Shown: in pieces, positions 56,734 through 62,511 of the stretch
Layout of the letters: each line of letters starts with the position of its first letter
Numbering within the stretch: position 1 is the stretch's first letter
Origin: Streptomyces halstedii
GTDB taxonomy: Bacteria; Actinomycetota; Actinomycetes; Streptomycetales; Streptomycetaceae
NCBI GenBank assembly: GCA_000720535.1
Contig: JOAZ01000005.1
Location: 62,001 to 126,000 of the forward strand
DNA: 64,000 bases
Direction of reading: 5' to 3'
Notes under the pieces: model-generated
What the model was told of the DNA's origin: nothing
Databases searched by the model: none
The model's input: the letters and a program-made list of their open reading frames with translations, nothing else
Made by a program: the position numbers and the translations under genes

Positions 56734-57039
56734 ATGAACCTCGCCCCCCGCGAGATCGACAAGCTGCTGGTGTACGTGGTGGCCGACCTGGCCCGCAAAC
56801 GCCAGGGGCGTGGGCTCAAGCTCAACTACAGCGAGTCCGTCGCGCTGATCACCGAGGCGATCCTGGAGGCCGCGCGGGACGGCAAGAGCGTCGCCGACTG
56901 CATGGAGCTCGGCCGCCACATCGTCTCCGAGAAGGACACCATGCCGGGTGTGCGGGAGATGCTCGGACTGCTCCAGGTCGAGGCGTCCTTCATGGACGGC
57001 ACCAAGCTGGTCTCCTGCCACGACCCCGTCGGCGGCTGA
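56734..57039 (+). CDS. ureA: Urease gamma subunit
   Basis: A 101-residue urease gamma subunit with the canonical start MNLAPREIDKLLVYVVADLA, LNYSESVALI and DGKSVADCMELG. It assembles with UreB and UreC into the (alpha-beta-gamma)3 enzyme that hydrolyses urea to ammonia and carbamate. GAGGAAGG lies just upstream of ATG 56734. In most bacteria ureB follows directly; here a CbiX-like gene is inserted, starting 3 bp after the ureA stop. Confidence 0.97.
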   Translation: MNLAPREIDKLLVYVVADLARKRQGRGLKLNYSESVALITEAILEAARDGKSVADCMELGRHIVSEKDTMPGVREMLGLLQVEASFMDGTKLVSCHDPVGG

Positions 57040-57042
57040 GCC

Positions 57043-57885
57043 GTGGCCGACCGCTGCCGCGTGGTGGCCGTCCGCGGCCACGAGGCCGGAGACGGCGAGG
57101 CGCTGGGCGAACTCGCGGGCCCGGACGTCCTCGTCGTCCCCGGCGGACGTGAACTGATCCGCGCCCTGGCCCGGGTGAAGCGCTCGGGCGAGTGGGCGTG
57201 CGTCGTCCCGATGACCCTGGGCAGGGACCCCGAGCTCGTCGCGGACACCGCCCGCACCCTGCGCGCGCTGCCCGCCGTACAGACCTCCGGGACGCTGCTG
57301 GCCGAACCGTTAGGCACGGCCCAGCATCTGATCGGCTGGCTGAGGGCGGCGGCGAACCGCACGGCGCGGACCTCGGCGCTGCTCGTCACCGCCCCGGCCG
57401 GCGGGCTGTTCGACGACGCCGAGCTGTACCGGATCGCCCGGCTGGTCCACGGCTACGCGGACCGGCCGCCGGTCGAGGTCGCGTTCACCGGAGGCGCCCC
57501 CGGTCCCGCCGAAGGGGTACGGCGCTGCGGGCTGCTCGGGGCGTCCCGGGTGACGTTGCTGCCCGCCGGGTTCCCCCTTCCCGAGGTGCCCGGCTCCCCG
57601 GACGTCGAGGTGGCGTCCGCCGGCCCCCTCCTCTCCCGCGCGGCGCTGGCCCGGATCCTCGCCGAGCGGGTGGCCGACGCCCGGCGGCGCTGGACCGAAC
57701 GGCGGGACGACGGCATCGCCGCCGGGCTGACCGCCGCCGACGACCACGGCCACTCCCACACCCACCCGCCGGGTGAGGGGCACGACCACACCCACGGTGG
57801 CCACAGCCACGGACCGACGCACTCGCACACGCATCCGCACCCGCATGTCCACGGCGCGGACCACGTCACCAGGAGCACCGCATGA
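57043..57885 (+). CDS. CbiX/SirB-like metal chelatase with 16-histidine tail
   Basis: A 280-residue protein between ureA and ureB. Residues 1-230 look like a two-half CbiX/sirohydrochlorin chelatase: [11 protein letters not shown] with H13, [16 protein letters not shown], then [16 protein letters not shown], and a second half ([39 protein letters not shown]). Typical chelatases have GHGSR and a further His in each active site; here only H13 is clear, so tetrapyrrole chelation may be lost. Residues 233-280 contain 16 His in [12 protein letters not shown] runs, ideal for binding Ni2+. It starts at GTG 57043, 3 bp after ureA, and overlaps ureB by 4 bp. Inference: nickel storage or delivery for urease, taking the place of UreE. 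Confidence 0.75.
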
Positions 57886-58340
57886 CTTTCCGTCAGAAGT
57901 ATTTGTACGGCGAGGGATCGATCGAGATCAACGCCGGCCGCCGGACCGTCCGGCTCACCGTCGAGAACACCGGTGACCGGGCCATCCAGGTCGGCTCCCA
58001 CTACCACTTCTTCGAGGTCAACTCAGCGCTGTCGTTCGACCGGCAGAAGGCGCTGGGCATGCACCTCAACATCGCCGCCGGCACCTCCGTACGCGTCGAA
58101 CCCGGCGGGACACGCGAGGTCGAGCTCTGCGAGTACGCGGGAACCGGACGCCTCGTCGGGTTCAGCGGCCTGCTCAACGGCAGCCTCGTCTCGCACCCGG
58201 CCAAGGTCGAGGCCGTCCGCAAGGCGATCGAGCGGGGCTTCGCCGGTGCGGGGGACACCGCCGGCGGGAGCCCGGACAGAGCGGGCAAGCAGAAGGACGC
58301 CAAGTCGAAGGACTCCAAGCAGAAGAAGGGTTCGCGCTGA
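57882..58340 (+). CDS. ureB: Urease beta subunit with lysine-rich tail
   Basis: The first 100 or so residues are a standard urease beta subunit ([52 protein letters not shown]). The usual length is about 101-105; here 152. The additional tail ends in repeated Lys/Asp/Ser units ([17 protein letters not shown]), likely disordered and strongly basic. ATG 57882 overlaps the chelatase stop by 4 bp, and its own stop overlaps the ureC ATG by one base (TGATG). Confidence 0.95.
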
Positions 58341-60849: not shown

Positions 60850-60923
60850 GACGCCGCCGGCCCGCCCGTCGGCCCACCGTTGACCCACCCGTTGATCCAC
60901 CCCACGACCAGCCAGGGAGCACC

Positions 60924-61544
60924 ATGGACGACAACGTACTGCGCATCGGCATCGGCGGACCGGTCGGATCCGGCAAGACCGCCCTCATCGAGGCGCTGGT
61001 GCCGATGATGATCCAGCGCGGCCGCCGCCCGTCCGTCATCACCAACGACATCTACACCCAGGAGGACGCCCAGCACATCCGCCGCACCCTGGACGGTGTG
61101 CTGGAACCGGAGCGCGTCGTCGGTGTCGAGACGGGCGCCTGTCCGCACACCGCCGTACGCGACGACCCGACGATGAACCTCGCGGCCGGCGCCGAGATGC
61201 TGGAGCGTTTCCCCGACACGGACACCCTCTTCTACGAGTCCGGCGGCGACAACCTCACCCTGACGTTCAGCCCCGCCCTCGTCGACGTCTTCGTGTTCGT
61301 CCTGGACACCGCCGAGGGCGAGAAGATGCCGCGCAAGCGGGGGCCGGGCATCACCGACTCGGAGCTGCTCGTCATCAACAAGATCGACATCGCCAAGTAC
61401 GTCCGTACCGACCTCGGCATCATGGAGTCCGACGCCCACCGGGTCCGCGAGAACCGCCCGGTCGTCCTGACCGACTGCCTCACCGGGGTGGGCGTCGACG
61501 AGGTGGCGAGCTTCCTGGAGTCGCGCCGCAAGGTGCTGATCTGA
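60924..61544 (+). CDS. ureG: Urease accessory GTPase UreG
   Basis: A 206-residue SIMIBI GTPase. The P-loop is GGPVGSGKT (11-19). The invariant CPH metal-binding motif is C73-P-H75 in ETGACPHTAVRDD, and the guanine-specificity motif is NKID. Dimeric UreG carries Ni2+ between the two CPH motifs and delivers it to UreDF-UreABC on GTP hydrolysis. Upstream UreE normally hands it nickel; no ureE is present in this locus. ATG 60924 has an AGGGAGC site about 5 nt upstream. The gap after ureF is 74 bp. Confidence 0.97.
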   Translation: MDDNVLRIGIGGPVGSGKTALIEALVPMMIQRGRRPSVITNDIYTQEDAQHIRRTLDGVLEPERVVGVETGACPHTAVRDDPTMNLAAGAEMLERFPDTDTLFYESGGDNLTLTFSPALVDVFVFVLDTAEGEKMPRKRGPGITDSELLVINKIDIAKYVRTDLGIMESDAHRVRENRPVVLTDCLTGVGVDEVASFLESRRKVLI

Positions 61545-61545
61545 C

Positions 61546-62511
61546 GTGCCGCCCACCCTGCCGAGCACCAGGCCCGACCGGCTCGACCCCGGGTACTACA
61601 GCGTCGTACGGCTGCCGCCCGAGGTGGCGGCGCTGGCGTCCGTGCCGGACACGCTCGCCCCCGGCTCGGCGGCCAAGGTCGGCGTACTCGACCTGGCCTT
61701 CGCCGTGCGGGGTGGGCGCACCGAGCTCGTGGAGCGCTACCAGAAGTCGCCGCTCCAGCTCATCCGGCCGCTGTGGACCGACCCGGCCATGCCCGGCATG
61801 ACCTATGTCTGCCTGATGGCCACCGGTGCCGGCGTCACCCAGGCCGACCGCTACCGGATGGACTTCCGGTGCGGTCCCGGCACCCAGGTGCACCTGACCA
61901 CCCAGGCCGCCACCAAGGTGTTCCGGATGGAACACGACTACGCCAGCCAGCGCGTCCGTCTGACGGCGGACGAGGGCGCGTACGTCGAGTACCTCCCCGA
62001 CCCCGTGATCCCGTTCGCGGACGCCCGGTTCTACCAGGACACCGAGGTCACGGTCGCTCCCGGCGCCACCGTCGTCCTGGGCGACACCGTGACCGCCGGA
62101 CGGCTCGCCCGGGGCGAGCGCCACGACTACCGGGTGCTCGCGACCGACCTGCGCGTCACCCGGCCCGACGGCACGCTCCTGGCCGTCGACACCCTGCGGC
62201 TGGGCGCGGACACGGGGATGCCCGGCGACAGCGTGACCGGCCCGGCGGTCTTCGCCGGGCACGACCACGTGTGCTCACTCTTCGCCGTCAGCGACCGTGC
62301 CCCGGCCACCGAGATCGCCGACACCCTGCACGAGGCGGTGGCCGGCCACGGCGTCACGTACGGGGTGAGCGTGCTGCCCCGGGAGTGCGGCGCCTGGCTG
62401 CGTCTCCTGGACGACAGCCCCGTCCGGGTCGCCGCCGCGCACACCGCCGCCTGGAACTCCGTACACCGGCTCCTCACCGGATGCCCGGCGCCCGCCGTGC
62501 GCAAGCCGTGA
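61546..62511 (+). CDS. ureD: Urease accessory protein UreD
   Basis: A 321-residue UreD (UreH) scaffold protein. Visible signatures: PLQLIRPLW near residue 68, HLTTQAATKVFRM, EYLPDPVIPFADARF and CGAWLRLLDDS near the C-terminus. It binds apo-urease and forms the internal tunnel through which nickel moves from UreG to the active site. GTG 61546 begins two bases after the ureG stop, so it relies on coupling. As in other streptomycete clusters (from memory) ureD is last in the ureABCFGD order. Confidence 0.92.
   Translation: MPPTLPSTRPDRLDPGYYSVVRLPPEVAALASVPDTLAPGSAAKVGVLDLAFAVRGGRTELVERYQKSPLQLIRPLWTDPAMPGMTYVCLMATGAGVTQADRYRMDFRCGPGTQVHLTTQAATKVFRMEHDYASQRVRLTADEGAYVEYLPDPVIPFADARFYQDTEVTVAPGATVVLGDTVTAGRLARGERHDYRVLATDLRVTRPDGTLLAVDTLRLGADTGMPGDSVTGPAVFAGHDHVCSLFAVSDRAPATEIADTLHEAVAGHGVTYGVSVLPRECGAWLRLLDDSPVRVAAAHTAAWNSVHRLLTGCPAPAVRKP

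Follow-up and report, generated by a model that had tools for sequence, protein, structure and literature searches.

A histidine-tailed chelatase homologue encoded between ureA and ureB as a proposed nickel donor for one actinobacterial urease lineage

Urease depends on nickel being brought to the enzyme, and members of the chelatase family insert cobalt, iron or nickel into rings. In the available text of a genome survey (PMC2770081), all but two of the tabulated ureE-less genomes carry a histidine (His) stretch on UreG, which was proposed as a stand-in for UreE; exceptions with neither UreE nor a His-stretched UreG are listed, and HypB was proposed as the explanation for the two. Among the class II chelatases, the metal site of SirB consists of His10, Glu43 and His76, as given in the accessible part of PMC11301274, and the accessible part of PMC7689651 describes CbiX-L of B. 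megaterium as having the ligands His14 and His79 and a C-terminal extension with an iron-sulphur (Fe-S) centre and a His-rich region, for which a role in metal storage and delivery was proposed. The DNA analysed here is a stretch of 64,000 nucleotides from Streptomyces halstedii (assembly GCA_000720535.1, contig JOAZ01000005.1, positions 62,001 to 126,000 of the forward strand; hereafter the window), in which a urease operon encodes, between ureA and ureB, a protein of 280 residues that is labelled X (57043..57885). By homology X belongs to the class II chelatases (CbiX/SirB/CbiK family), of which it keeps the two lobes and the first ligand His, and the comparative data suggest that it is probably a urease-dedicated nickel reservoir and metallochaperone built on a dead chelatase. 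The genes of the operon, their neighbours and the two parts of X, with positions counted in the window, are as follows.

55661..56671, + strand: urea transporter gene, 5' of ureA (PF03253, E 2.3e-86)
56734..57039, + strand: ureA, urease gamma subunit (PF00547, E 3e-40)
57043..57885, + strand: X, 280 residues, GTG start, proposed urease nickel donor (open reading frame list, model, profile, scan of loci)
57043..57738, + strand: core of X, bilobal class II chelatase, residues 1-232, holding H13 and H95 (AlphaFold, Foldseek, residue counts)
57739..57882, + strand: His-rich C-terminal tail of X, 48 residues, 16 His (residue count)
57882..58340, + strand: ureB, urease beta subunit (PF00699, E 3.6e-40)
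58340..60064, + strand: ureC, urease alpha subunit (PF00449, E 8.9e-47)
60070..60849, + strand: ureF (PF01730, E 1.5e-33)
60924..61544, + strand: ureG, whose product has a short N-terminus free of His (MDDNVLRI) and a C-terminus that is not His-rich (TIGR00101, E 6.1e-75)
61546..62511, + strand: ureD (PF01774, E 6.9e-53)
62561..63916, + strand: ammonium transporter gene, 3' of ureD (PF00909, E 8.7e-108)

The genes ureA, ureB, ureC, ureF and ureD were named by Pfam and ureG by NCBIfam, all above cut-off, with the start codons of ureA and ureF chosen by inspection of the open reading frames (ORFs). The start of X lies 3 bp after the stop of ureA, and X overlaps ureB by 4 bp. The original prediction, made from the sequence of the window, had described this placement of a 280-residue ORF, a 48-residue tail with 16 His and an operon composed of ureA, B, C, F, G and D, and the ORFs, residue counts and family searches bear out each of these points. 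X contains 19 His in total, and the binomial probability of finding 16 in the tail is about 2e-14 at an assumed background His rate of 2.5%.

Searches with X as a single sequence were uninformative: no Pfam family matched even at E values as high as 10 (UreE_N included), the one NCBIfam match was weak (E 0.36) and lay over the tail half, and a phmmer search of PDB sequences returned only two weak matches, both over the tail half. The family was therefore assigned by profile and fold. The AlphaFold model of X has a mean predicted local distance difference test score (pLDDT) of 95.1, and its best Foldseek match is the CbiK structure 1qgo (E 4.5e-6, template-modelling score (TM-score) 0.57, 11% identity), followed by lower matches to periplasmic CbiK, ferrochelatases and SirB (E 6e-3); the unrelated-looking 4s1v also falls below E 0.001 (E 4e-4, TM-score 0.25). 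A profile of X was built from an alignment of 60 rows (A2), comprising the core of the window X and 59 of the 80 scanned loci described below, with 21 loci left out, and was compared by hhalign with an alignment of six actinobacterial CbiX-type proteins (A3), which it matched with a probability of 99 and an E of 5e-18 over 217 columns. The CbiX-like fold that had been read from the sequence is thus supported by both structure and profile. In the profile alignment H13 corresponds to the histidine of the GHG motif of CbiX, the first catalytic His, and residue 13 is His in 57/60 rows of A2 and Tyr in 3/60. In the column of the second catalytic His, the 60 rows have E, G, R, K, D, T, A, L or Q at residue 64 and in no case His, and the segment of CbiX that carries the catalytic Glu is a gap in X, in agreement with the earlier remark that H13 alone of the chelatase His is clear. 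The missing second His outweighs the missing Glu, because the metal-site Glu is, in the accessible part of PMC11301274, not conserved in CfbA either. The reading of X as an active chelatase making a metallo-tetrapyrrole, which the chelatase fold and H13 would favor, was rejected on the loss of the second His and the Glu of the SirB metal site (as given in the same part of PMC11301274), and is scarcely credible also in that contig C14 of the genome encodes another, separate CbiX-type protein, which is above the Pfam cut-off, and in that X sits among urease genes in the window.

X therefore resembles CbiX-L, SirB and CbiK in its two-lobed fold and in the first ligand His within a GH motif, and CbiX-L further in its His-rich C-terminal extension, but it differs from all three in having neither the second catalytic His nor the Glu, in being found mostly in urease operons and in giving no Pfam match as a single sequence. 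Unlike CbiX-L, the tail of the window X contains no Cys, and hence no Fe-S pair is present there. Two Streptomyces CbiX-type proteins (L134, L135) carry a His-rich C-terminal tail of their own together with a Cys pair, in neighborhoods that look like cobalamin gene clusters; since such a tail occurs on CbiX-type proteins, that of X may have been inherited.

The association of X with urease is conserved well beyond the window. In a genome scan, of which the best 80 of 85 loci were kept, 67 loci have X between ureA and ureB, 4 have it after ureA where the contig ends, and 9 have it elsewhere, so that the co-occurrence in relatives on which the original prediction depended was indeed found. The 67 loci belong to Kitasatosporales (45), Mycobacteriales (8), Streptosporangiales (7), Micrococcales (5) and Catenulisporales (2), and the gene order in most scanned loci is ureA-X-ureBCFGD. 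The nine other copies comprise six in Catenulispora, one in Embleya, one in Spongiactinospora and one in Streptomyces sp. A 4/2. In the last of these (L065:7894-12868), the urea transporter, X with its His tail, ureF, ureG, ureD and the ammonium transporter are kept, ureB and ureC are gone, and ureA is reduced to about its 19 first codons; at L053, ureABC and X occur together in a urease operon of the same species. As a separate observation, the gene 3' of X at L020 and L018 resembles, from a reading of the neighbors, a trehalose-phosphatase/glucoamylase fusion.

Long His tails and H95 covary with urease linkage. With L065 counted as urease-linked, pairwise alignment across the 80 loci found H95 in 72/72 linked and 0/8 unlinked copies, and in A2 it is present in 53/53 linked rows and 0/7 unlinked rows, which have Leu, Gln or Glu instead. 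The tails of 52 full-length linked rows of A2 contain a median of 13 His and a minimum of 6, as against 1-4 in the 7 unlinked rows; these counts omit L042, where the tail is masked, and L064 and L085, in which the frame continues into the next genes. The six Catenulispora paralogues (L070, L078, L088, L090, L099, L109) have short tails with 3-4 His and are without H95, and the copy in Spongiactinospora rosea (L118:6871-8696) has neither H95 nor a long His tail and lies beside a urea transporter gene, no urease genes having been found in the stretch examined around it. These data bear on the possibility that X is a nickel buffer or store of the cell, a detoxifying sponge that is co-expressed with urease and hands nothing over to UreG. 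The His-rich tail alone would explain storage, and the wide range of tail length, which in L051 reaches 349 residues and 75 His, would suit a sponge and not a docking element. However, invariant core residues and the way in which H95 follows urease linkage indicate that the folded core serves a specific function, and the UreG of X operons is without a His stretch of its own, such that a mere sponge appears improbable, if still worth some weight.

X appears to have travelled with one form of urease. The UreC of the window was compared with 150 Streptomycetaceae genomes, and among the matches listed 37 were at least 69% identical to it and the others at most 58%; the loci examined were 35 of the 37, together with the window's own and that of genome G222, and five of lower identity. 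X was found in 29 of the 34 high-identity loci with complete upstream DNA (L176 being cut), as well as in the window and G222, and in 0/5 loci of the lower-identity group. On a quick UreC tree, in which some branches are long, the presence of X requires 4 changes, as against a mean of 44.7 after shuffling, and X was thus inherited with one urease lineage. Within this lineage, ureA and ureB are not separated by X at five loci (L167, L171, L172, L174, L178); a full-length X is likewise missing from the rest of the genome in four of these cases (G459, G446, G516, G427), and the remaining genome (G403) carries X at a different urease locus. Such loci also speak to the possibility that X serves in the assembly or stability of UreA and UreB and is kept for translational coupling, with metal binding secondary. 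The wedging of X between ureA and ureB, with the 3-bp spacing and 4-bp overlap of the window recurring in several relatives, would be in keeping with such a function, but it is a distinctly unlikely one, as the five loci of the same lineage do without X, as L065 retains X with ureF, ureG and ureD though ureB and ureC are lost, and as the His tail, H95 and the chelatase ancestry would be left unexplained.

For the supply of nickel to urease, the accessible literature describes two agents, UreE and the His-stretched UreG. UreE_N (PF02814) had no match anywhere in the genome of the window, and both controls, C. glutamicum and Haloferax, were matched; likewise, two UreE queries, which did match four control loci, detected nothing ureE-like in the 80 X loci when both strands were searched. 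The original prediction that X is present instead of UreE therefore stands as far as the absence of ureE from this genome is concerned, no ureE having been found elsewhere in it. It does not stand as the main statement: in a class sample of 296 genomes, UreE_N matched 6 (5 above cut-off) as against 129 matched by urease alpha (128 above cut-off), which means that ureE is missing from most urease-bearing genomes of this sample, X or no X, and replacement of UreE by X was rejected in that capacity. The X profile matched at least 51 of the 296 genomes, two of them strongly (that of the window and G222), a count that is a lower bound in that at most 8 candidates were scored per genome; nine weaker matches were inspected and look CbiX-type, L132 and L139 being so judged by their neighbors only. 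UreE occurs in 3 of 49 X-holding genomes, a set in which two genomes were included through an unlinked copy of X, and all three are Rhodococcus/Prescottella, where ureE sits in a urease operon of its own, and X was not found in that operon.

The comparison with UreG is more telling. It covered 174 loci including the window, with the P-loop motif located in 156 and not in 18, identical UreG removed, and a UreG was called His-rich with at least 3 His in an N-terminal extension or at least 4 in a C-terminal tail. When ATG, GTG and TTG starts were allowed, His-rich UreG was found in 39/45 X-less ureE-less loci, 2/90 X loci and 0/4 ureE loci, with L176 dropped from the count and with both of the X-locus cases depending on an assumed upstream start. 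With ATG and GTG starts only, the counts are 34/46, 1/90 and 0/4; TTG starts had been added after five X-less loci proved cut short. A start-independent measure of UreG His gave medians of 5 (X-less) and 1 (X). In all of these counts the X-less class loci were hand-picked rather than sampled at random, and loci that are related to one another do not count as independent. The same alternation is visible within the genome of the window, where a second urease operon without X (contig C14, L128:3007-6817) encodes a UreG with a His-rich end, and within the lineage, where L171, L172 and L178 of the X-less loci have His-rich UreG N-termini. This strong pattern, though not statistically secure, suggests that X may stand in for the His stretch on UreG rather than for UreE. 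No X was found in the 16 kb around ureABC of genome G187, which is presumed to be that of Frankia CcI3, and X accordingly does not explain the Frankia CcI3 exception in the available text of PMC2770081. In UreF, the C-terminal 40 residues contain fewer than five His at every locus, the choice of UreF ORF being uncertain in some loci. A further observation on UreG is that the His-rich C-terminal tail starting near a DPGPMAPH motif in L184, L193, L194 and L196 is also seen in other X-less actinobacterial ureases.

A model may be constructed from these data by which nickel reaches urease in X operons. The tail of X would gather Ni(II), and the former active-site cleft, with H13 and perhaps H95, would hold it; the nickel would then be handed to UreG or to the UreDFG-urease activation complex, such that X would take on the task that falls in other ureases to UreE or to the His stretch of UreG. 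X is like UreE in being encoded in a urease operon, in its His-rich C-terminus and in its putative delivery of nickel, but differs in lacking a UreE_N match, in its chelatase fold and in the position of its gene between ureA and ureB. As with the His-stretched UreG in the available text of PMC2770081, the X operon is a ureE-less urease with a His-rich segment, but here the segment is on a separate chelatase-derived protein, and the ends of UreG are not His-rich. The fuller proposal is that of a third nickel route, in which an ex-chelatase with half a metal site, a His tail and H95 would deliver Ni(II) to UreG/UreDF and replace both UreE and the UreG His stretch; the balance tips slightly toward it. 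No published description of this route or of X was found in the open-access literature, most subscription papers lying outside the search.

Several points weigh against the proposed nickel delivery by X. Both the handling of nickel by X and its contact with UreG are predictions. The eight copies in Catenulispora, Embleya and Spongiactinospora are remote from urease genes, and three urease-linked rows of A2 are those with Tyr at residue 13. Full-length X occurs in 5/37 genomes of the window's genus, this one included, and is thus a minority trait. The X-less lineage loci L167 and L174 have UreG that is not His-rich and no full-length X in their genomes, so that neither is a requirement for an operon of this kind to exist. 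Tree pairs that differ in X and are independent number four, of which a mean of 1.9 differ as predicted, 0.2 in the opposite direction and 1.9 not at all, and it is this small number of independent contrasts that keeps the trade-off from statistical security. In CbiX-L of B. megaterium the extension is dispensable for cobalt insertion, according to the accessible part of PMC7689651, and a His tail alone is therefore no proof of a transfer role. Finally, HypB was matched above cut-off in 21/52 X genomes, including that of the window (G000:C3:117272-117907, 289 bits, with one TAG within the matched stretch). An alternate scenario would have nickel reach urease by way of HypB or directly, with X dispensable; beyond these matches, it would draw on the proposal made for the two exceptions in the available text of PMC2770081 and on the five lineage loci without X. 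However, a HypB match above cut-off is absent from the other 31/52 X genomes, and the ureA-X-ureB arrangement is maintained across five orders, leaving this scenario very unlikely.

Were nickel delivery by X borne out, X would represent a further solution to nickel supply, for one actinobacterial urease lineage, and would show that a chelatase scaffold can turn into a metallochaperone. The model also offers handles at the level of residues, namely H13, H95 and the tail.

Other features of the window are of less direct bearing. An assumed consensus for a Nur-type nickel box gave 0 sites in the window at up to 3 mismatches. UreB (57882-58340) has a Lys-rich C-terminal extension past the urease beta domain. 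On the minus strand, two overlapping ORFs (54673-55709) adjoin the urea transporter gene and resemble what is presumably a CrcB/FluC fluoride channel pair, and homologues of one ORF of this pair adjoin many X operons.

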